Origin: a virus
Direction: 5' to 3' (one strand)
IMG/VR virus record: IMGVR_UViG_3300025313_000046
Coordinates: 1 to 42,129 of that record
Length of the DNA: 42,129 nucleotides
Shown here: positions 4,164 through 21,689 of the stretch, in pieces
Layout: each line of letters opens with the position of its first letter
Numbering within the stretch: position 1 is the first letter of the stretch
Program-made: the position numbers and the translations under genes
Notes under the pieces: generated by a model
The model's input: the letters and a program-made list of their open reading frames with translations, nothing else
Database searches by the model: none
Told to the model about the DNA's origin: nothing

Positions 4164-5354
4164 ATGGCTATCGATCTCACGACAATGGATGAAACAAAAC
4201 CTGACGGAGCAACTGAGCAAGTTGCTGCCTTAGATAACTATCTACGAGAAGTTCGAGACAATCTCAAAGACTGGGCTGACGTTGAGCATGGGCTAACTGG
4301 TGGTCGTCACAAGTTTGCTATTGGAAATACAGCTTCTCGTCCAGCAACAGGTCTTGAGACTGGTACTATCTATATCAATACTCAAGTTGGAACTATTGAG
4401 TACTATGATGGAGCTGCATGGCAGCAAGCTGTCGGCGTCATCGATGCTATTCTACAGACTCTGATTGATGCTAAGGGTGATCTTATTGCTGGGAGTGCTG
4501 ATGATACGGCAGTTCGAGTAGCTGTTGGATCGAATGGGCAAGTTCTTACGGCAGACTCTGGTCAAGCTAGTGGTCTTGCATGGTCGTCTGTGACTCAGCG
4601 TGGTTATCTTTATGGGATGGGCCTTACTAACAATGGAGCTGACGCTACCAATGATATAGATATTGCCGCAGGCGAGTGTGCATCTGATGACGCTGCGGCT
4701 ACTGATCGTATTTTGCTGAACCCGGGAGCTATGACTAAACAACTCGATGTTGTTTGGGCTGCTGGGTCGGCGGCGGGTGGTAGAATTTCTACTGAGGGTC
4801 TTGCTGATGGTACGTGGCACGTCTATGCGTTTAGACGAACCGGTGGTACAGATGATCTTTGTTTTTCTCAATCTCTAACTCCAACCCTTCCAGATTCTGG
4901 AACTAAGAAGCGTCGCATTGGTAGTATCGTGCGAGCTTCTGCTGCGATCATCGCTTTTATTCAAGATGGTGATTTCTTTCAACACTCCACGCCTCTCCTT
5001 GACTATAATGTTACTAATCCAGGAACTGCTGCTGTTACTGTGACCCTTACTGTTCCTACTGGTATCAACGTCTTAGCCTTGGTGAATGCTACAGCATCAG
5101 ATGATATAGCTGGAGGTACTCAGACTAACATATATCTCAGTGATCTAGCTACAACTGACTTAGCTCCATCCATAACTGCTGCACCTTTAGCGTCAGCTCC
5201 GAACAATGCCGCTACGACAAGAATTCCCATAGGCCCTCTACTTGTTCGCACAAACACATCTGGACAGATTCGAGCTCGTTTGTCTGCATCGAACGCGAAC
5301 GTGGACGCACTTGTTGTGATTCTTGGGTGGTTTGATAGAAGAAATAGATATTAA
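4164..5354 (+). CDS. Tail fibre-like protein
   Basis: 396 aa. The N-terminal helix (LDNYLREVRDNLKDW) is followed by the fibre motif AKGDLIAGSADDTAVRVAVG and NGQVLTADSGQASGLAWSSV at about residues 103-143, a repeat common in phage tail fibres that probably makes a trimeric beta region. The C-terminal half is beta-rich and Ser/Thr/Ala-rich. Likely a receptor-binding or fibre-shaft subunit. The next gene follows with no gap. Confidence 0.7.
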   Translation: MAIDLTTMDETKPDGATEQVAALDNYLREVRDNLKDWADVEHGLTGGRHKFAIGNTASRPATGLETGTIYINTQVGTIEYYDGAAWQQAVGVIDAILQTLIDAKGDLIAGSADDTAVRVAVGSNGQVLTADSGQASGLAWSSVTQRGYLYGMGLTNNGADATNDIDIAAGECASDDAAATDRILLNPGAMTKQLDVVWAAGSAAGGRISTEGLADGTWHVYAFRRTGGTDDLCFSQSLTPTLPDSGTKKRRIGSIVRASAAIIAFIQDGDFFQHSTPLLDYNVTNPGTAAVTVTLTVPTGINVLALVNATASDDIAGGTQTNIYLSDLATTDLAPSITAAPLASAPNNAATTRIPIGPLLVRTNTSGQIRARLSASNANVDALVVILGWFDRRNRY

Positions 5355-5795
5355 ATGATCACAAAGCCTCGTATACCTTTTGCTCCGGTGGGGGTTGATC
5401 ATCGCGTCGAACTTTGGATGGAGTCTGTTCGTACTGAGCTTGTAGCTTTTGCTGATACAATTGAAAACTCTGTTGTGGATCGTAAACTTGTTGGAGATGT
5501 TGTTGTTCAATCTGTAGTGGCGGGGTTCACGGTCGATCCCTTAGCCCCAGTAATTCGTCTAACCGCGACTACTCCAGTGTCATCCGACACTACCACTGCC
5601 ATTAAGGCTGGACATACTTCTCGATCGCAACCTCTAACTATCATAAATATCGGTGCGAGCGACATTACTATCAAAAACAATGCTTCTGTGAAACTACGGG
5701 GAGCGGCAGACAAAGTCTTAGAGACTGATGACGCTTTGATGTTAATGTGGGATGGAGCTACATGGCGTCAAGTCTCTTATGAGTCAGATAACTAA
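5355..5795 (+). CDS. Small tail-associated beta protein
   Basis: 146 aa, directly after the fibre gene. Residues 75-146 form a compact beta pattern (TIINIGASDITIKN, then DDALMLMWDGATWRQV) that recurs in phage tail and fibre accessory proteins as a terminal knob. The N-terminal 50 residues are helical. Probable fibre-associated or baseplate-like part; no enzyme motif. Confidence 0.6.
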   Translation: MITKPRIPFAPVGVDHRVELWMESVRTELVAFADTIENSVVDRKLVGDVVVQSVVAGFTVDPLAPVIRLTATTPVSSDTTTAIKAGHTSRSQPLTIINIGASDITIKNNASVKLRGAADKVLETDDALMLMWDGATWRQVSYESDN

Positions 5796-7366
5796 TGCTC
5801 TATAAAACGATAGCGCCCGCCGATCTTGGTGTTAAAACAGATGTGTCTCCACATCTGATCGATGCTCGTGCATGGATCACCATGGCAGGCATGAGAGCCC
5901 TTGGCGGCGAAGTTGTTAACTTCCCTGGGTGGACGTCGATATTTGCTGGTGGTACTGATGTTGGTGGAGCTGTGACTCTTATTGCTAGTATCGAGAAATT
6001 CAATAATTCTCAGTTTCTTGTTGTAGGAGGACCTTCCAAAATCTATCGTTACAACGCCGTTGCAAAGACTCTTACCGACATTAGCGGGGCTGTTACATTT
6101 GTTACGACTTTGGACGAGCCTTGGTGGCCATTCATGTTTAACGACAATTTGTATGTTACAAATAAGAACGATGGTTTGTATAAATATACAGGATCAGGTA
6201 ATGTTAGTCTTGTCTCTGGTGCGGCGGGTGCTAGAGCAGGAGCAGTTCTCAAAGACCACATCTGCCTATTTAACTTAACAGGAGGATTCGATCAGACTTT
6301 CTTGTGGGCAGCGGAGGGCTCAGACACCGCTTGGGCTGCACTTGCTACGAACGATGCCGGCGAATTTGATCTAAAAGATTCTCCTGGTCAAGGTGTAGCT
6401 TTGTATCGCCTCGGTAACGACCTTATTGCTTACAAGGATGATAGTATAACTCCCATAACCTTCATAGGTGGGAATGAGGTTTTTGGTCGTCGTCAAGCTG
6501 TTGATAAAATTGGTTTGCTGGGTCAGTTCGCTCTTGCGAATCTTGGTAGATACCACATTGGTATGTCTGATCGTGAATTCTTCAAGTATGATGGTGGTAC
6601 GCTTGCTGATACTGACATAGGTGAGCCAATTCGCAATACTGTTTACGATGCGATGAGTCAAAAGTACCGTAACAGATGTAGGGCGATGTGGTTTCGCGAC
6701 ACCCAAGAGATTCTCTTTATGTATCCAGCATCCGGGTCTGTTGGTGAGCTCACGCATTTTGTCATTTATAATTATGGCGATAATGTGTGGTATGGCCCTA
6801 CACCTATAACCCAAGGAACTTATGTAGGAGCAACACGACGATCTCTTAGTATGGTGATCGATGAAGTCACTGACATTATCGACACGGTCACTGATTTCAT
6901 TGACTCTGATGTATTCATTGTGGGAAATCCCATGCAACTATTTGGCGACTTAAGTGGAGTTGTTCATGACATTGGTGTAGGTCAAAGTGCTAATGGTACT
7001 GCTATCACGAGAACTCTAGAGAGCGGAGATCATTTCCTTGGAGAGGGTGCTGTAGACGAAGCCGGAAACCCTGTAGTAGTGCCACTAAGCTCAGTCTTTT
7101 CTGTTAATGCTGTTGTCATTGAAACAAAGGACGTAGCAAACGATGAGATTAGCTTCTATATTGGTTCACATATGGAGCTTAATGATGCAGTTACGTATAG
7201 TGTTGCTTATACGATAAAGGCCCATTCTAGTGGTGTTATCAGGATACCGGTTCGTGGTGCTGGAACATTAGGACGATGGATACGCGTGAAATTCTCGATT
7301 CCTAGTTCACGTCAATTTGGACTCTACGGACTTCAATATGAATTCTCGCCAGTAGGGAGACGATAA
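5795..7366 (+). CDS. Tail nozzle / tubular-B-like propeller protein
   Basis: 523 aa. Repeated beta blades (KFNNSQFLVVGGPSKIYRY, MFNDNLYVTNKNDGLYKY, YRLGNDLIAYKDDSI, NLGRYHIGMSDREFFKYDGG) give a beta-propeller pattern typical of the tail nozzle of short-tailed phages (P22 gp10, T7 gp12 type). Its place between adaptor/fibre genes and ejection proteins fits. The ATG shares one base with the upstream TAA. Likely part of the DNA exit tube. Confidence 0.65.
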   Translation: MLYKTIAPADLGVKTDVSPHLIDARAWITMAGMRALGGEVVNFPGWTSIFAGGTDVGGAVTLIASIEKFNNSQFLVVGGPSKIYRYNAVAKTLTDISGAVTFVTTLDEPWWPFMFNDNLYVTNKNDGLYKYTGSGNVSLVSGAAGARAGAVLKDHICLFNLTGGFDQTFLWAAEGSDTAWAALATNDAGEFDLKDSPGQGVALYRLGNDLIAYKDDSITPITFIGGNEVFGRRQAVDKIGLLGQFALANLGRYHIGMSDREFFKYDGGTLADTDIGEPIRNTVYDAMSQKYRNRCRAMWFRDTQEILFMYPASGSVGELTHFVIYNYGDNVWYGPTPITQGTYVGATRRSLSMVIDEVTDIIDTVTDFIDSDVFIVGNPMQLFGDLSGVVHDIGVGQSANGTAITRTLESGDHFLGEGAVDEAGNPVVVPLSSVFSVNAVVIETKDVANDEISFYIGSHMELNDAVTYSVAYTIKAHSSGVIRIPVRGAGTLGRWIRVKFSIPSSRQFGLYGLQYEFSPVGRR

Positions 7367-14530: not shown

Positions 14531-14987
14531 GAAAAATGCTATTGTTATTCACGACACCGGTGGTAATACGGTTCAAGGAACTTTAGGCTGGTTTCTTTCT
14601 GAAGAATCTAAAGTTTCTTCCCATTATCTAATCGCTAAAACAGGCGAAATCTATCATGGAGTCCCTGACGAATATGTTGCGTGGCACGCAGGAAAGTCGA
14701 TTCTACATGGTAGAGACTATGTTAATAATTTTGCTATAGGCATAGAGCTAGTCGACGATAATGATAATGATCCATATCCTGATGATCAAATGGAGTCTTT
14801 GATTGACCTATGTGAAAAGTTGTGTATTGAACATGTTATTTCATTGAACCGAATTGTAGGACATAAAGACATAGCTATTCCGGCGGGACGTAAGGTTGAC
14901 CCTGGGAAAGACTTTCCTTGGTACGAATTTCTCAATACAATTGGTGCGAGGATTGCTGCAAGAGAGATTAACGGGGACGAACCTTAG
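14460..14987 (+). CDS. N-acetylmuramoyl-L-alanine amidase endolysin (Amidase_2)
   Basis: 175 aa with a strong AGAGGAG eight bases upstream. Amidase_2 core: AIVIHDTGG (zinc His31), SSHYLIAKTGEIYHGVPDEYVAWHAG, IGIELV, and the end motif VGHKDIAIPAGRKVDPGKDFPW, with the second zinc His (GHKDI) and a Zn-site Asp (KVDPG). It cuts the bond between muramic acid and the peptide, releasing progeny. It is a bare catalytic domain without wall-binding repeats or signal, as usual for Gram-negative phages, so it needs a holin. Its 3' end overlaps the convergent gene by 20 bases with no terminator. Confidence 0.92.
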   Translation: MRDLIEVEFPHFSKSPNGTPKITKKNAIVIHDTGGNTVQGTLGWFLSEESKVSSHYLIAKTGEIYHGVPDEYVAWHAGKSILHGRDYVNNFAIGIELVDDNDNDPYPDDQMESLIDLCEKLCIEHVISLNRIVGHKDIAIPAGRKVDPGKDFPWYEFLNTIGARIAAREINGDEP

Positions 14988-16203
14988 GCTCCTGCTTCAT
15001 CTCACGCTCCGCGAGTTTTATCACAACTTTCTTTCCGATTACTTGTGGAGTCTCAATCGTATCTTCCTGCGCTAGTGTCATTATTAGCTCGTCGAACTCA
15101 CTTATAGGAAGGCTCATTCCGCGAATAAGAAGTCGCCTATCAGCAACCCCGCCGTTTCTTCTAATCATATCGATGAGCTTAGCTCTGTTCTGTCCGTGTG
15201 TCGTTGAGGAGGCCCATGAGGATATCCTATTAAACTCTGGGAGCTGATCTTCTATAAATTTGATACCTCCTGCAACATGAGCTTCCTCAAGTATCAAACG
15301 ACTACTTCGTGACACGGATATTAACATTCCTACTTTCAATGCCGTATCGTGACACCTCTCCTTGAATGCGTCAGTAACTGAGTCATCATCAGTTGTGATC
15401 TCGCAAAGTTTCTCATACCATCCTGTGAATAACTCTTTTCCGGCTGACGTTATTGTCATCTCCCCCTGTAGGTTAGCGATAGTTTCCAAATCTCTTTTGA
15501 GAGCCTCTCGTAAAATTTTATGATCGGCACTAGATTCGGGCCATGCGATAATCTTGCGCTTGTCTCTCGCTGTAACGAATATGATGCGTCCTATGAGGCC
15601 GGCTATAACTTCGTCGGGTAACACTTTTAGATTCCGTGGGTCAGTTCCTGCAAGTAGTACGGTATACAGATTTTTCAAGTCTATCTGAGAATCGCTTTTG
15701 GTCGTGTGCATGTAACTATCACGACCGTAAGTCTCTGTTAGCAGAATGGTCATGCGCGAAGCTCTACCCTTATCGTATCCAAATAAGGTAGCTAGCTCAT
15801 CTGCATGGATTAGTAGATAGGACTCGTGTTTAATTTTTGGGATTTCGTCAGACTCTTTTTCAAAGACATGATGCACACGGTTCATCTGTTTAACGATACC
15901 CTCGGGAGTTGCTGCTCCAGTTATGTATCCTCCATTAATCTTAAATGCGGGAAGGGCTTCTAGTAGAAGATTAACACCTATGTTCATAGCTGTACTCTTA
16001 CGTACTCTAGCAGATTCTGCAACAAGCAAGACGTAAATGTTGGGATAGAGGGAGAAGATACCGCGACTTAGCCAGATACGACGACGTAGAGCTGCACTAA
16101 GAACGGCGAAGGCCGTCCAAAGGTGAAGCTTTTCAGGACTTTCTTGATCCTGTGTCCATTCTAGATAGGAGTCAAGCCAGTCCTCAAGAAGTCTATCACT
16201 CAC
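14968..16203 (-). CDS. DUF3987-like P-loop ATPase, probable replication helicase/primase-type
   Basis: 411 aa; GTG start overlapping the upstream TGA (GTGA). PNIYVLLVAESARVRKSTAMNIG (about residues 54-76) has the form of the DUF3987 P-loop but lacks the usual glycines before KST. LLIHADELATLFG is a Walker B-like segment (Asp-Glu), and LIGRIIFVT follows. The C-terminal 90 residues look like a winged helix (RAKLIDMIRRNGGVADRRLLIRG). In phages such proteins sit with DNA polymerase and are thought to be replicative ATPases. It is the last gene of the operon. Confidence 0.7.
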   Translation of the reverse strand: MSDRLLEDWLDSYLEWTQDQESPEKLHLWTAFAVLSAALRRRIWLSRGIFSLYPNIYVLLVAESARVRKSTAMNIGVNLLLEALPAFKINGGYITGAATPEGIVKQMNRVHHVFEKESDEIPKIKHESYLLIHADELATLFGYDKGRASRMTILLTETYGRDSYMHTTKSDSQIDLKNLYTVLLAGTDPRNLKVLPDEVIAGLIGRIIFVTARDKRKIIAWPESSADHKILREALKRDLETIANLQGEMTITSAGKELFTGWYEKLCEITTDDDSVTDAFKERCHDTALKVGMLISVSRSSRLILEEAHVAGGIKFIEDQLPEFNRISSWASSTTHGQNRAKLIDMIRRNGGVADRRLLIRGMSLPISEFDELIMTLAQEDTIETPQVIGKKVVIKLAEREMKQEPKVRPR

Positions 16204-16421
16204 CCTTTATGAGGTTTCTCGATTACGTTTCGTTTCTCATCAAGAGATAGCGTTTCAAATTTGACAGCATTAAGTAACATCTCGTTCCAAGCTTTTGGGC
16301 GACATTTTGGACATATTGTTTCATCCAAGGTTTCGTTCGTAGTGTGGATACTCCAAACTTCCCATAGGTACTCACCACACGTAGGACAATTTACTAGGTT
16401 TTGGTGGAGTCGTAGAGCCAT
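16200..16421 (-). CDS. Small zinc-ribbon protein
   Basis: 73 aa with CPTCG at residues 12-16 and CPKC at 37-40, a four-Cys zinc ribbon. The start has AAGGA nine bases upstream; the stop overlaps the next start by four bases. It lies between the polymerase palm gene and the DUF3987-like gene, so it may assist DNA or protein contacts in replication. No named family. Confidence 0.7.
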   Translation of the reverse strand: MALRLHQNLVNCPTCGEYLWEVWSIHTTNETLDETICPKCRPKAWNEMLLNAVKFETLSLDEKRNVIEKPHKG

Positions 16422-16423
16422 TT

Positions 16424-17245
16424 TTAGAAGTCCTTATATGACTTAAGTTCACCCCAACTAGGACCGATTTTGAAATTCATTGGGATGATTAAAGGGTCGT
16501 CATCCCCTACTAACAACTCTATCTCAGCCTCCTTCTTGATAGTGCGACAGGTATAGCGAACAACATCTTCACTGTTCGGCACAACAACGCCCACCGAGTC
16601 GTGTACTTGTAGTTGAACATCAAGACCATGTGAGCGAATTTCCCAAGGCGTCAAAGCTTTAGCTTCGCTAAGGCTATCAGTCTTAAAAATGTTGCAAAGC
16701 TTGTTCAGCAGGTGAACAAGTAAGTGGCCCACCGTAGACTGTGGATAGAAGGCAAACCCCGCCCTTTCCATCTCAGCATCGTAGATACCGTAAAAGGTTT
16801 TCTTCCACTTAAATGGTGGAGGCAAGTGTATAGTTCGATCACGACTTAGCTGGGTTTTTACCCAAGCTTGATACCCTGACTTAATTTCTGGGAAAATCGC
16901 ATGGTGAATGTTTTGAATCATCTCAGCATAGTTCGTAGGCAAACCTGAGATAGTCGCAAACTTTATCTTACCAAGACCATAGTTATTTGCGTGATTTGAT
17001 TTCTTACCTATGTCTCGTTCTTCTTCATCGTCTTTAGTAAACTCTTGCCAAGGCTTGCGCCTAAAGATATCTCGTGGCATCTTTAGCTTATTCTCTTGGA
17101 CGAACTTACCTATGAGTTTTGCTGTACCGAGGTGGGTGTCGCGACCTTCAAGATACCACTGTTTCATAAGCGGAATAGGACCACGCCAGGCGCAAACACG
17201 GGATTCTGCTTGACCATAATCCCCAAAGATAAAAACGTTCTTCAT
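16424..17245 (-). CDS. Family A DNA polymerase, palm/fingers half (motifs A, B, C)
   Basis: 273 aa beginning directly at motif A. D9YGQAESR (catalytic Asp9, Glu14); motif B R77-D-I-G-K81 with Tyr89-Gly; a phage-type YPQSTVG; motif C QVHDSV with catalytic Asp216. So both metal Asp, Arg77, Lys81 and Tyr89 are present. Residue 85 is His where E. coli Pol I has Phe762 and T7 has Tyr526, and motif C reads HDS instead of HDE. Exonuclease, thumb and first palm part are absent; they are encoded at 18205-19905. The product should bind that protein to form the enzyme. ATGA overlap with the dCTP deaminase gene. Confidence 0.9.
   Translation of the reverse strand: MKNVFIFGDYGQAESRVCAWRGPIPLMKQWYLEGRDTHLGTAKLIGKFVQENKLKMPRDIFRRKPWQEFTKDDEEERDIGKKSNHANNYGLGKIKFATISGLPTNYAEMIQNIHHAIFPEIKSGYQAWVKTQLSRDRTIHLPPPFKWKKTFYGIYDAEMERAGFAFYPQSTVGHLLVHLLNKLCNIFKTDSLSEAKALTPWEIRSHGLDVQLQVHDSVGVVVPNSEDVVRYTCRTIKKEAEIELLVGDDDPLIIPMNFKIGPSWGELKSYKDF
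16703..16717 (-). repeat. Dispersed 15-bp palindrome, copy 3
   Basis: Reads GTTCACCTGCTGAAC on the minus strand, identical to copy 6. Arms extend to seven bases (TTGTTCA/TGAACAA). It lies in the palm-half polymerase gene (codons for VHLLN). Confidence 0.8.
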
Positions 17246-17745
17246 GCTTTAGCTTGCTCAACCCCCACCGCATTTTGGTATCTACCACTGTACGGGAACT
17301 CCGCATCACCAGAAAGTCTATGAACTATTAACTGAGCGAAGCGCATCCCAGGCCATATTGGTAGAGCTTGGTAACGAGTGACGTTACGTACCTCAAAAGT
17401 GCCGACTCCACTCCAACCAGGATCAAACCAGAAAGCTAGAGAGTGATCGAAACCTTGACGAGCCCGTGTTGATTTTAGCTTACAGTCGATGGCGTAGCCG
17501 TTTGGGACCACGATGCGTTCCATAGTTTCTATCAGGACAAAATGCCCTGGAGGAAGTATGTGAGGGAATCGCTCTGTGAATCCACCAAGGTCGTAAGTGA
17601 TCCACACATTATGATCACTCTCACGTATTAGTTTATTTCCGATTCGTATGTCGATGGACGCTGGATTTACCAATGTCTCATCATATGGTTGTACTAACCA
17701 TCCAGTACGTCCTAACGACTTGAGGTCTCTGTCACAAAGAATCAT
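17242..17745 (-). CDS. dcd: dCTP deaminase (Dcd/dUTPase superfamily)
   Basis: 167 aa; GGAG seven bases before ATG. Opening MILCDRDLKSL and NPASIDIRIGN match Dcd. LPPGHFVLIETMERIVVP, then Ser92, Arg96, WFDPGWSGVGTFEVRN with Glu118 in the place of E. coli catalytic Glu138, then PGMRFAQLIVHRLSG and a C-terminal YQNAVGV arm. It deaminates dCTP to dUTP (bifunctional enzymes go on to dUMP), feeding dTMP synthesis. Length is near the 190-residue norm. It sits between the two polymerase halves, coupled to both sides by overlaps. E. coli Arg110 is Lys91 here. Confidence 0.85.
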   Translation of the reverse strand: MILCDRDLKSLGRTGWLVQPYDETLVNPASIDIRIGNKLIRESDHNVWITYDLGGFTERFPHILPPGHFVLIETMERIVVPNGYAIDCKLKSTRARQGFDHSLAFWFDPGWSGVGTFEVRNVTRYQALPIWPGMRFAQLIVHRLSGDAEFPYSGRYQNAVGVEQAKA

Positions 17746-18208
17746 GGTGGGGCTCCGGTGGGAAAACTATGATGTTAAACCTCTGACGAAGCATTTCCAC
17801 ATCTGGGGTTCTTTTGTAGACTCTGAACAATTCGTGAAGGGAGAAGTAGACAGGTTTGTTGTTTTCTTGTGCAAACACCATTTCTTTGTCTGCTCCATAA
17901 GATGCTCCGGGGAGTCTTAGCAAACCATCACAACGAAGTATCCATTTGAAATCTAGGTCCAGCCACTCCTGTTCGGGATTCTGATGTTGTAGGTTCCAAA
18001 ACCAATTGAGATGTGGAACGTATGGGGCGAAGTTATGAAGTCTTAGAATCTCCGCGTATTTAATAGCATTTGCGACTGAGAGTTCAGGAGTTCCTCCTGT
18101 CATGAGTGGGCCAGCGATGTATATGTGAGGTGTAAAGTTCATTGAAACCTCGTATGCATACGGCCAGTATATTGTTGGTGTTCCTGGAAACTGTGGCCAC
18201 AAGGTCAT
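17732..18208 (-). CDS. Nucleoside 2-deoxyribosyltransferase/DUF4406-like protein
   Basis: 158 aa from ATG 18208 (ATGA overlap). An ATG at 18142 with GAGG six bases upstream would give 136 aa starting MNFTPHIYIAGPL, exactly where the family fold begins, and may be the true start. Motifs: IYIAGPLMTGG (nucleotide loop), DLDFKWILRCDGLLRLPGAS, YGADKEMVFAQENNKPVYF, as in nucleoside deoxyribosyltransferases and dNMP hydrolases (Rcl-like). It probably cleaves or transfers a base or sugar of a deoxynucleotide; which one cannot be told. It lies between the polymerase halves with dCTP deaminase. Confidence 0.7.
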   Translation of the reverse strand: MTLWPQFPGTPTIYWPYAYEVSMNFTPHIYIAGPLMTGGTPELSVANAIKYAEILRLHNFAPYVPHLNWFWNLQHQNPEQEWLDLDFKWILRCDGLLRLPGASYGADKEMVFAQENNKPVYFSLHELFRVYKRTPDVEMLRQRFNIIVFPPEPHHDSL

Positions 18209-19905
18209 TTTGGAATAAATAGTTGTCTAGCTATTGGATAACGCCAAGGAACATTTTGAAGATTCGTCCCTGTTCCAAGGATCGACCTGACCGACGACCA
18301 CCTTGCGCCATCTGTTCCTCCTAGCTTGTAGTGAGAATGCATACGACCATCTTCACCTAATTCTTGCTCTACTATGTCACCTTTGAGGTCTAACACCCCT
18401 CGTAAATCCTGGATATATCTTAAGACTTCGTCTTGATATTTGTCAGCAAAATGCTGTAGAGCATATTTATCTGAGGTAACAGAGCGTTTACCAGACCGCT
18501 TGTCTACCTTATATCTTGGTTGATAACCTTTTGTCTTGTACAAGAGAGCTGACATTTGCTTAGGTGAGTTAACATTAAGATGCCATCCCAACGTTTTATC
18601 AATAGACCTCTGAAGTTCTTGAACACGGGCTTCTAACTCTGTCTTAGCTATAGCTCTTTTCGCAATATCTATCGCTACACCAAACCATTCCATTCTCAGG
18701 GAATTCAAAAAAGAATCCATATAGTGTTCAATGAAGTATTCCCATACGTCCTCTTCGTGGGCTTCCGTTTCCATCTTTTCCGCAACTTCTATCGGTATCA
18801 TAACATCCATACAGTTGTATGCCCAGAAAGCGTGTTCCCCGTACTCAGGGCGCCACTGTCTTCCGTCGTCTTTATAGTATGGTGTCTCTGTATAGTGAGA
18901 TGTTACGAAAGCAAGTCCATGTCCAGGTTCATCAAATCTTGGCTTTATAGCTGACCACTCGCTCTTAGCAGCACCAAAGTCTGGATATAAGCAGTGATGG
19001 AGTAACATGGTGCAGATGCGAGGAAACCTTGGATAAATCTTAGCAAGCCACATATACATCCAATCAAAGGCTAGGTTGTGGCCTATTTTTTCAATTTTAG
19101 AATTCGCTAAGACTGTAGCTAAGAGTTGCCAGATAGCCGCTTCTTCTTCAAGAGTCCAGTAGTTTACCCCTGACTGACGTACAAATGGTATACAAAGAGC
19201 TTGGTCTTTACGATAGCCAATACCAAAGCAGGCAATATGACCAGGGCGATTAGCTGTGTACCACGATGTTTCTATGTCAAAAGATATTCGTTTCTGCTCA
19301 TTACATTCGCGAAGGTAATCTATGACTGTACGAAACGATGGACCTGTTAGAGCCTCACGTTTTGGTGGGCGTATCTCTGGGAAGAGGCTTTGTTCTATTC
19401 CTCGTTTTATGTCTATATGAGCAAATACAGGCTCCCACTTGAACATACCACGAAGAATCCAAGCAGGATGGACGGTAGCTAGACATTTTTGCCCTGGGAT
19501 AATTGTAGAGGGAAGGATGGAGCCTCGCCACTTCTGAATTCCTTTTTTACCAGTAAAGACTTGCAGAGGTTCATTTCCACATAATATGACACAATTTGGC
19601 TTAACCTCTTTGAGCTCTCTTGTAACACGTTCGACTTCTTTCTGTAAAATGTAAGGAGGTAAGTCAAAGATAGAAGTACCAACACGAATCGGAAACTCAA
19701 CGATATTAGTAACGTAAACATCATTAGTCCGAGAAATCTTGTAGGCTCCCAGGGCCGCGTTGAGGCGACGCCCTGCGGCTCCTACAAATGGTATCCCTTG
19801 AGCTATCTCCTCGGAAGCAGGGGCCATTCCTACGACAGCGAGTTTTGCGTTTTGTGGGCCACTCGCTTTAACTCGCTTTGTTATGTCGAAGGAGGTGTAG
19901 GCCAT
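18205..19905 (-). CDS. Uracil-DNA glycosylase domain fused to exonuclease and N-terminal part of family A DNA polymerase
   Basis: 566 aa, three parts. (1) Residues 20-165: family-4-like UDG, with G26MAPASEE then GIPFVGAAG (motif 1), VYVTNIVEFP, and H146PAW (motif 2). The iron-sulfur Cys set of family 4 is not complete. (2) About 205-370: 3'-5' exonuclease with D210-I-E212, N278-D281 and Y363-NCM-D367, all catalytic acids kept. (3) About 385-566: polymerase thumb and start of palm, with GTDGARWSS and TNLQNVPWRYPIARQLFIPK. The protein ends exactly before motif A, which opens the gene at 16424-17245. So this is half of a bipartite polymerase. Confidence 0.9.
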   Translation of the reverse strand: MAYTSFDITKRVKASGPQNAKLAVVGMAPASEEIAQGIPFVGAAGRRLNAALGAYKISRTNDVYVTNIVEFPIRVGTSIFDLPPYILQKEVERVTRELKEVKPNCVILCGNEPLQVFTGKKGIQKWRGSILPSTIIPGQKCLATVHPAWILRGMFKWEPVFAHIDIKRGIEQSLFPEIRPPKREALTGPSFRTVIDYLRECNEQKRISFDIETSWYTANRPGHIACFGIGYRKDQALCIPFVRQSGVNYWTLEEEAAIWQLLATVLANSKIEKIGHNLAFDWMYMWLAKIYPRFPRICTMLLHHCLYPDFGAAKSEWSAIKPRFDEPGHGLAFVTSHYTETPYYKDDGRQWRPEYGEHAFWAYNCMDVMIPIEVAEKMETEAHEEDVWEYFIEHYMDSFLNSLRMEWFGVAIDIAKRAIAKTELEARVQELQRSIDKTLGWHLNVNSPKQMSALLYKTKGYQPRYKVDKRSGKRSVTSDKYALQHFADKYQDEVLRYIQDLRGVLDLKGDIVEQELGEDGRMHSHYKLGGTDGARWSSVRSILGTGTNLQNVPWRYPIARQLFIPK

Positions 19906-19927
19906 TATTCACTCGTCTTCCATTGAC

Positions 19928-21250
19928 TCATTCTTCTATTACCTCCTTGGACGTTTCTAGCTCCGTTAATCTTCTTCTAATCTTTTCATAATTTCCCGGA
20001 TCACCCTCAACGCCGATAAAATATCGTCCAGTGTTGAAAGCCGCAACCAAAGTTGACCCTCCACCACTAAATGGGTCAAAAACAATCTCGTTGACGACAG
20101 ATGAAGCTTCAATATAGGTTTCGACAAGTTCAACAGGTTTCTCGTTTTCGTGCCAGAGACCTGGTTGTCTAGAGATTCCAAGTCCTTCAGGAGTTGCTCG
20201 ACTAAGTAGTCGACGGACTCCATCTGGGTCAGGCTTGGCTCCCCAGATGAAAGTCTCGTAGGTAGATAGGAACGTGGAGTAGGGATCGGAGATACTTGGC
20301 TGTCCGGTCTTGAACCATATGAGCGGTCTTTGTCGGACATGAAACCCCACCTTTGTTAATTGAGTTATCCACCATTCTAACTCTTGAGCGGGAAAGAAAC
20401 AGTAGAAATGCGAAGCAGGCTTCATGACTTTAAACAAAAGAGGGAAAACTTCTAACAACATAGGGCGAACATGACCTACTGTATCATCGTAAGATGCGAC
20501 CCACTTCGATGTCCATTGTGATGAGTGTTCAAAATCAATGGCCCAGGGTGGGTCCATGAAAATTAAGTCCACAGAGTCAGGCTCCATAGTCTTGAGAATA
20601 TCTCGACAGTCGGCATTATGAATAATACCACTCCCAAAGGTGGTAGAATTTTCAGCTGGCGTTATTCCAAGTTCTTGAGATCGTCGTTTTGCCAACTCTC
20701 TGAGAAGTTCTAGCTCTCGCTCTCTTTTAGCTGTAGTGATGGCTCCCCGCCGTGACGGACGACCTACGACTCTTTCATTAGAAGTGAAGTTGGCGAGCAT
20801 GAGGTCTTCAGAGACTTTACCGACAGAGAGGCCCAGAGCTTCTGCTGTTTTACGAGTACTCCACTCCTCCCCACTCTCTTTGGCAGAAACTTCGCGAAGT
20901 GAATGAATCTCTTGAATGGCTTGGACTTCTTCTTGCCATGTCAGTTGTTTTCTTTTGTGATTCTCGTCAAACTCTAGCTCTTTTCTTTCCAGAAGAGGGA
21001 GCGTTTCAAAGATCCGAGTAGGGATAGTAGATCGCCCAAGAAGCTTGAAAGCCTCAATACGACGACGGCCAGTAGCGAGAGTATTGTCGCGATAGATGAC
21101 GATAGGATTAATAAGGCCACGAAGCTTGATACTCTCTGCGAGCTCCGCGATGGTGGCTCCACTGATCTTACCATCTTCCAACTCTTTTCGTTGTCGATCA
21201 TCATCTTTGACAATGATTTGATCGATCGGAACTTCTATGTAGTCCTCCAT
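19928..21250 (-). CDS. ParB-like nuclease domain fused to beta-class DNA methyltransferase
   Basis: 440 aa; AAAGGAGAG before ATG. Residues 5-110: ParB/sulfiredoxin-type domain (LRGLINPIVIYRDNTLATGRRRIEA). Residues 130-150: helix-turn-helix-like (STRKTAEALGLSVGKVSEDL). Residues 205-435: methyltransferase with DPPW at 233-236 before FDPFSGGGST near 398, i.e. beta-class order, N6-adenine or N4-cytosine type. ParB-methyltransferase fusions are common in phages and are thought to guard phage DNA from restriction or mark it. The target sequence cannot be read from the protein. No partner nuclease gene is seen. Confidence 0.88.
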   Translation of the reverse strand: MEDYIEVPIDQIIVKDDDRQRKELEDGKISGATIAELAESIKLRGLINPIVIYRDNTLATGRRRIEAFKLLGRSTIPTRIFETLPLLERKELEFDENHKRKQLTWQEEVQAIQEIHSLREVSAKESGEEWSTRKTAEALGLSVGKVSEDLMLANFTSNERVVGRPSRRGAITTAKRERELELLRELAKRRSQELGITPAENSTTFGSGIIHNADCRDILKTMEPDSVDLIFMDPPWAIDFEHSSQWTSKWVASYDDTVGHVRPMLLEVFPLLFKVMKPASHFYCFFPAQELEWWITQLTKVGFHVRQRPLIWFKTGQPSISDPYSTFLSTYETFIWGAKPDPDGVRRLLSRATPEGLGISRQPGLWHENEKPVELVETYIEASSVVNEIVFDPFSGGGSTLVAAFNTGRYFIGVEGDPGNYEKIRRRLTELETSKEVIEE

Positions 21251-21270: not shown

Positions 21271-21522
21271 CTATCGCTTTGTCTGAGCTTTAGCTTCCTC
21301 GACTACAAGTCTTCGTCGCTGAAACTCGTAACCATGAAATTTGTTGATAGCTGCGTTGGCTTCGGCGGGGTCTGCCATTGTCACGAAACCGAAGCCTTTG
21401 CTTTGCCCCGTCTCTCTGTCTGTGATAATGAGAGTCTCGACGACTGTGCCAACAGTACCAAACAACTCGCGAAGATCCTCTGCTGACGCATTGTAATTGA
21501 TATTTCCCACGTAAAGCTTCAT
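21271..21522 (-). CDS. RRM-domain RNA-binding protein
   Basis: 83 aa from ATG 21522, with GGGGGAG three bases upstream. A single, nearly bare RNA recognition motif: RNP2 LYVGNI at 3-8, RNP1 KGFGFVTM at 42-49, plus AINKFHGYEF and a basic tail (AKAQTKR). Such small RRM proteins are known in cyanobacteria and several proteobacteria, but are rare in phages. The transcript upstream is strongly structured (21523-21689), so the protein may bind its own leader or phage/host mRNA; that link is inference. Confidence 0.85.
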   Translation of the reverse strand: MKLYVGNINYNASAEDLRELFGTVGTVVETLIITDRETGQSKGFGFVTMADPAEANAAINKFHGYEFQRRRLVVEEAKAQTKR

Positions 21523-21689
21523 CGCTCCCCCTTGTAAGTGAGGAGGCCCTGTCTCATAACCAGGACCTCCTCGTCGCTTGCATTGTGGCTTTCGCCACCT
21601 TAATTTGCGAGCGACCTTTGTGGTTCGTTGGCTCAAAGGGCGCTAGGTTGTCGATACCCTTGCATGGCGCCCATCGATACTTCATGATT
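21523..21689 (-). promoter_or_regulatory. Structured leader RNA upstream of the RRM gene
   Basis: On the minus-strand transcript this gap folds almost completely. P1: 21540-21551 with 21561-21572 (12 bp including one G-U, 9-base loop). P2: 21573-21582 with 21606-21615 (9 of 10 paired), enclosing P3: 21585-21589 with 21594-21598 and a GAAA tetraloop (GNRA). P4: 21616-21620 with 21634-21638. P5: 21638-21643 with 21667-21672, which competes with P4. P1 and P2 abut with no unpaired base, and P1 ends eight bases before the Shine-Dalgarno. There is no U-run, so it is not a standard terminator. Confidence 0.6.

Follow-up and report, generated by a model that had tools for sequence, protein, structure and literature searches.

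A SPO1-type family A DNA polymerase encoded on two genes in a metagenomic phage, and a recurrent seam ahead of motif A

Several phages are known to encode a DNA polymerase in two pieces. Aeromonas phages 25 and 44RR carry an insertion that divides the gene of the family B polymerase gp43 into 43A and 43B, and the gp43A and gp43B chains co-purify and polymerise, as found for phage 25 (reviewed in PMC2988022). The group 2.2 jumbo phages make the catalytic unit of a replicative polymerase, Pol III alpha of family C, as two proteins (PMC7824862). In family A, the polymerase of phage MEP401 was published on two open reading frames (ORFs); its authors suspected an intron without locating the cut (PMC10580990). 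SPO1-type polymerase genes are also hot spots of group I introns with HNH nucleases (PMC11878797). Here we describe a family A polymerase carried by two genes of a metagenomic phage (positions 16424-19905 of IMG/VR record IMGVR_UViG_3300025313_000046; the entire record of 42,129 bases was analyzed and is called the window below). The locus resembles split gp43 in being an apparent two-chain phage replicase with an insertion between its parts. However, it does not have the family B fold, and its insert consists of genes of deoxynucleoside triphosphate (dNTP) metabolism rather than a seg-like nuclease or an untranslated spacer. It likewise differs from the jumbo phage system, in which the enzyme belongs to family C, the two genes lie far apart and a family B polymerase is also present.

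The first-pass annotation had noted a family A polymerase on two genes with the break directly ahead of motif A, all catalytic acids kept, no core segment lost, and a gap of 959 bp containing a dCTP deaminase and a deoxyribosyltransferase-like gene. All of this was borne out by Pfam, PHROGs and Protein Data Bank (PDB) profile searches and by residue checks; coordinates, frames and gene order are correct. Chain 1, the N half (566 residues; 18205-19905, minus strand), comprises a UDG-like family-4 domain, a 3'-5' exonuclease with motifs exo I, II and III, the thumb and the first part of the palm, and ends in ...GTGTNLQNVPWRYPIARQLFIPK directly before its stop codon. Chain 2, the C half (273 residues; 16424-17245, minus strand), starts with MKNVFIFGDYGQAESR and holds the motif A palm strand (D9), the fingers with motif B (R77, K81, H85, Y89) and motif C (H215-D216). 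Pfam recognises UDG in residues 16-155 of chain 1 (PF03167, E 7e-17), DNA_pol_A_exo1 in residues 196-381 (PF01612, E 1e-8) and then positions 8-144 of the DNA_pol_A model, which chain 2 continues at positions 152-380; both chains match phrog_17, at model positions 465-1002 and 1007-1238, respectively. Because these model positions nearly abut, the two genes together cover practically the whole DNA_pol_A domain. By PDB profile search, the N half runs up to index 371 of the Klenow chain and the C half resumes at index 377. In E. coli Pol I numbering the cut thus falls between about 694 and about 700, 5-11 residues ahead of the motif A Asp705.

The catalytic residues of exo I, II and III and of motifs A, B and C are all retained, including the DEDD exonuclease residues D210, E212, D281 and D367 in chain 1 and the family A residues D9, R77, K81, Y89, H215 and D216 in chain 2. 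The fused N-terminal UDG-like domain, which the first-pass annotation had not mentioned, and the DEDD 3'-5' exonuclease together make up the SPO1-type (UDG-exo-pol) architecture. A further addition to that annotation concerns the third conserved position of motif B, which is His (H85) rather than Phe, Tyr or Leu. As in two-part genes of the gp43A/43B kind, both parts are open, complementary, conserved and encoded together. No family B or Pol III (family C) polymerase was recognised in the 42-kb contig, which holds only these two PolA segments.

The same arrangement, which the first-pass annotation had suggested looking for in related metagenomic phages, was indeed found there (loci are given by L numbers). 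The relatives came from profile searches; the C half used as a single query sequence gave no match in IMG/VR, and the GTDB genome collection held no complete relative. Four relatives share the cut, with chain 1 identities to the window of 57% (L088), 54% (L169), 49% (L089) and 41% (L170), and L088 was recovered again from a second metagenome as L168, with 7 mismatches over about 15.6 kb. The gap between the halves changes from genome to genome: it consists of one 46-residue ORF with an ATGA overlap in L088, of less than 200 nucleotides (nt) in L169, of three small ORFs in L089, and of a gene for a 149-residue protein plus a MazG-like gene in L170. Across the five genomes both halves are open and keep nearly all catalytic residues, down to identities of 41% (N half) and 35% (C half). 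Between the window and its relatives, both chains show about the same identity as the neighbouring methyltransferase and DUF3987 genes, and change in both halves is greatest at third codon positions. The ratio of non-synonymous to synonymous change (dN/dS) was 0.09 for chain 1 of L088 and L169, the one pair of this clade with measurable synonymous distance. In L088 and L089 the exo II Asp, retained in the window, is replaced by Glu, a substitution that may alter proofreading in these two phages.

Intact homologous genes are found in three annotated phage records (Manatee Spring phage, Microcystis phage Mel-JY34 and Desulfofustis phage), where the operon order is similar: ParB/methyltransferase, polymerase, then DUF3987 or a primase-like protein. 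The single gene of these relatives occupies the same operon place as the two genes of the window, and the window halves align to the intact homologs without a missing segment. The intact relatives L001, L002 and L004 and many IMG/VR loci are more distant, at about 30% identity. Single-gene relatives beside frame-broken copies here had been named by the first-pass annotation as a pattern that would tell against a split enzyme; such relatives do exist, but the copies here are not frame-broken.

We mapped each two-frame break on a full-length family profile made from 166 loci. The breaks are clustered at two places: model positions 560-571, ahead of motif A, and model positions of about 355-366, between exonuclease motifs II and III. 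The sole exception is L048 (model about 520), where the gap holds a ligase-like gene. The motif A seam accounts for at least six changes on the polymerase tree, and placing all splits at this seam in one clade was rejected on a 36-row tree (approximately unbiased test, p-AU 1e-6; log-likelihood loss 464). When 11 events were placed uniformly and independently, which is a crude null, six fell within 12 columns in 0 of 200,000 draws. Among lineages the exact cut position differs by as much as about 11 residues, which fits separate events. Several members represent the window clade and the L065/L067/L070 lineage, and L063, L143 and L145 are split lineages known from single contigs.

Among the genes in the other palm-seam gaps are those for a GH25 endolysin and a subtilase-like protease, a second deoxyribosyltransferase-like (DRT-like) gene, and Mom-like and RNase T genes. 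Secreted-type genes lie between polymerase halves in L065 (subtilase-like protease, 4960-7020) and L070 (GH25 endolysin, 5862-6734). The smallest possible split is seen in L006 (8378-8386), where the gap is a TAA followed immediately by an in-frame ATG; in L067 and L216 the two parts overlap and there is no gap.

The seam also recurs in an unrelated lineage. MEP401/MEP402-type phages (Zobellviridae-related OM43 phages; PMC10580990, OP830906) have, like the window, a two-ORF family A polymerase with a small ORF between the parts, but they lack the UDG domain, belong to a distant lineage with far lower similarity and carry Phe instead of His at the position equivalent to 762. Part 1 of MEP401 ends in ...NLQNFDGEIKTLFLSRYGE directly before its stop codon and part 2 starts with MILNADAKALEW, which places the cut at the seam before motif A. 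All testable MEP401-type loci in IMG/VR (77/77; both parts present, MEP401 included) are split there, with identities of 66-100% and gaps of -35 to 632 nt, and no intact polymerase copy was seen among them. In sampled pairs, dN/dS was 0.06-0.18 on both chains.

Because the same cut arose independently in several virus lineages and was kept, the halves very probably work together. We conclude that the window very likely encodes a working two-chain family A polymerase, as the first-pass annotation had suggested: the anatomy of the genes, the split shared by five genomes with changing gaps, conservation like that of the neighbouring genes, the lack of a second polymerase in the contig, the lack of an intron or intein signal, and the recurrence of the seam all support this reading, in which the two chains would assemble into an active enzyme. 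The sole recognisable polymerase of the phage would then be of the SPO1 type (UDG-exo-pol) and consist of two polypeptides, both probably translated from one operon via overlapping stop and start codons. Chain 1 would supply the UDG-like domain, the proofreading exonuclease, the thumb and the first palm strands, and chain 2 the catalytic strands of the palm, with motifs A and C, together with the fingers, which bear motif B. Most likely the chains join non-covalently across the palm and both contribute to the active site; gp43A and gp43B of phage 25 set a family B precedent for such an enzyme. Judging from known family A structures, this composite site would combine the thumb, the TGRxSS Arg and the NLQN Gln of chain 1 with the catalytic Asp and the fingers of chain 2; the Arg is kept in 165/165 rows of the family and the Gln in 164/165. 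The split was presumably fixed in the ancestor of the window clade, and the interval would then have become a site of gain and loss of small operon genes, here of dNTP metabolism, with the polymerase unharmed.

Each chain alone was predicted by AlphaFold to fold confidently. The model of chain 1 (predicted local distance difference test, pLDDT, 93.8; predicted template modelling score, pTM, 0.89) matched Klenow and other Pol I structures in Foldseek. The model of chain 2 (pLDDT 90.7, pTM 0.87), in which the motif A strand (residues 3-10) comes first, matched Taq, Bst, Klenow and Pol theta, with TM scores by query length of 0.61-0.71 among the 50 best matches.

Some points weigh against a two-chain enzyme. 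The single-chain models were built from alignments of mostly intact homologs and would speak for nothing being missing, not for association. The IMG/VR record is linear, which leaves some probability to a second polymerase encoded outside the contig or to use of the host enzyme. Finally, the splits of L063, L143, L145 and L070 lie on single metagenomic contigs and could reflect indel error or recent damage.

A full-length polymerase might instead be restored by splicing, of a self-splicing intron or of trans-splicing pieces, a route known from SPO1-like phages and suspected in MEP401. SPO1-type polymerase genes often contain group I introns with HNH nucleases, and those that do (CampHawk, Mater, Bastille; PMC11878797) share with the window phrog_17 and an interruption in the same gene region. 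In CampHawk and Mater the introns lie between GRLSSxxP and NLQxxP, about 30 residues upstream of the motif A Asp; the window is cut about 20 residues downstream of that site. In these genes, however, the interruption is an intron, with splicing shown for Bastille and SPO1, whereas in the window it consists of coding genes. The 959 nt are covered throughout by two ORFs of conserved families, both on the minus strand. The first (17732-18208; 158 residues) encodes a DUF4406/nucleoside 2-deoxyribosyltransferase-like protein (phrog_355, E 9e-17), and shares 4 nt (ATGA) at its start with the end of chain 1. After an overlap of 14 nt there follows a dCTP deaminase gene (17242-17745; 167 residues; PF22769, E 1e-22; phrog_1663, E 1e-42), whose stop overlaps the start of chain 2 by 4 nt (ATGA). 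Hence there is no space for an intron or intein. Chain 1 has its own stop and chain 2 its own ATG, exactly at the seam. An Rfam scan of 15900-20500, up to E 1, detected no group I/II ribozyme core, and no intron signal was found in the other split loci scanned. In contrast, the CampHawk (E 4e-4) and Mater (E 2e-9) introns, used as positive controls in E-value mode, were both detected. In other members, moreover, the gap is a single stop codon (L006) or an overlap (L067, L216), while the 1-nt spacings between MEP401 gp13, gp14 and gp15, together with members whose ORFs overlap, leave no space for an intron in MEP401-type phages. We therefore reject a group I/II intron in the window (no Rfam signal, gap fully coding) and consider splicing in any form highly improbable; these results argue against the intron interpretation in the literature. 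A split intein was rejected as well: chain 1 ends with FIPK and chain 2 begins with MKN, with no extra sequence, and no intein family is among the Pfam hits.

There is similarly little chance that we are looking at a dying gene, inactivated by an insertion in a phage that uses the host replicase. The break does adjoin a catalytic motif, and intact relatives exist. However, the open halves, the near-complete retention of catalytic residues in five genomes and the third-position-biased change are at odds with decay, as are the low dN/dS values on both chains of MEP401-type phages, where no intact copy was seen.

The confident folding of each chain alone would suit separate roles, with chain 1 acting as a UDG/exonuclease repair factor and chain 2 serving with some other partner as a truncated polymerase. 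This, too, is very unlikely, given that chain 1 retains a thumb and the beginning of the palm, including the TGRxSS Arg and the NLQN Gln, which have no evident use without chain 2, and that chain 2 has neither a thumb nor half of the palm sheet. Misassembly or sequencing error as the source of the split is scarcely credible: the window and its relatives are metagenomic, and L251, a MEP401-type locus, shows such noise in the form of an apparent one-base frameshift beside motif A, but the junction is repeated in L088 and L168 (two metagenomes), L169, L089 and L170, several junctions have operon-style ATGA or GTGA overlaps, and the isolated phages MEP401 and Kuura are also split.

Caulobacter phage Kuura (OQ067476) and its metagenomic counterparts belong, like the window, to the UDG-exo-pol family and encode two chains with small ORFs between them, but there the cut lies between exonuclease motifs II and III, and the first part is annotated as a hypothetical protein. 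This is a second recurrent seam, with at least four changes on the polymerase tree, at which the DEDD site would come from two chains. It was found in L003 (3974-7378) and in L031, L033, L034, L037-L039, L043-L046, L050-L052, L056-L061, L066, L068, L073, L076 and L078.

The first-pass annotation had stressed that metabolic genes, and not a homing nuclease, lie between the halves. This holds for the window gap, in which no homing endonuclease was found, the two genes there being those of the DRT-like protein and dCTP deaminase, but it does not hold everywhere: HNH genes occupy the gap at the same seam in L251 (HNH/endonuclease-VII-like) and at the exonuclease seam in L031, L046 and L073. An ancient nuclease origin is thus possible. 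It is plausible that a nuclease initiated the split and was later lost, other cargo then being captured. For the polymerase of the window, a nuclease-driven insertion would be the likely trigger, and a loop that tolerates a chain break would explain the location of the cut.

Split phage polymerases have precedents; what is new is a palm seam in family A that recurs and carries cargo, and a literature search of open-licence papers found no earlier report of it. If the two-chain reading is right, two chains can together form the palm of one of the best-studied enzyme folds, with the break only a few residues away from a catalytic Asp, and evolution has reached this cut repeatedly. The equivalent of position 762 in motif B (H85 of chain 2) is His in 161/162 family rows, in place of the Phe, Tyr or Leu of the published virioplankton classes; about half of the loci were found with a pattern that includes this His and the other half without it. 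A published virioplankton screen keeps only sequences with R688, D705, K758 and F/L/Y762 (PMC9069017). Split enzymes and His762 enzymes fail this screen, a sign that metagenomic PolA surveys have a blind spot. We think it rather probable, although with less assurance than for the window itself, that phage family A polymerases in general have two natural seams, in the palm ahead of motif A and between exonuclease motifs II and III, that these have repeatedly given true heterodimers, that the interval is tolerated for cargo (dNTP enzymes, MazG, endolysin, subtilase, Mom-like), and that surveys requiring R688 and D705 within a single sequence, as well as F/L/Y at 762, would miss them. Natural split family A polymerases offer a ready set for structural work and for engineering assembly-dependent polymerases, and an enzyme with its palm cut beside motif A, with metabolic cargo and in separate lineages, merits direct assay.

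All four close relatives of the window lack a homolog of its DRT-like gene at the gap position, and dCTP deaminase is absent from their fetched loci. Looking for the gap genes beside an intact polymerase gene, we found no dCTP deaminase or DRT homolog in the fetched loci of the four closest relatives; the only DRT-like matches, distant ones, lie 1.7-2.8 kb downstream in L080 and L161. A DUF4406/DRT-like gene directly follows chain 1 in two independently split lineages, at 17732-18208 in the window and at 8668-9024 in L145.

The neighbouring genes, all on the minus strand, are context and not part of the polymerase. Upstream lies a gene for a ParB-N and N6/N4 DNA methyltransferase protein (19928-21250); intact relatives also carry a methyltransferase/ParB gene upstream of the polymerase. 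The downstream neighbour (14968-16203) encodes a DUF3987/primase-helicase-like protein, and a DUF3987-type gene is likewise found downstream of the intact polymerase in Mel-JY34 and the Desulfofustis phage. The replication operon of the window further includes a gene for an RNA recognition motif (RRM) protein (21271-21636; PF00076, E 4e-21). To our knowledge, an RRM protein in a replication operon is unusual among phages.

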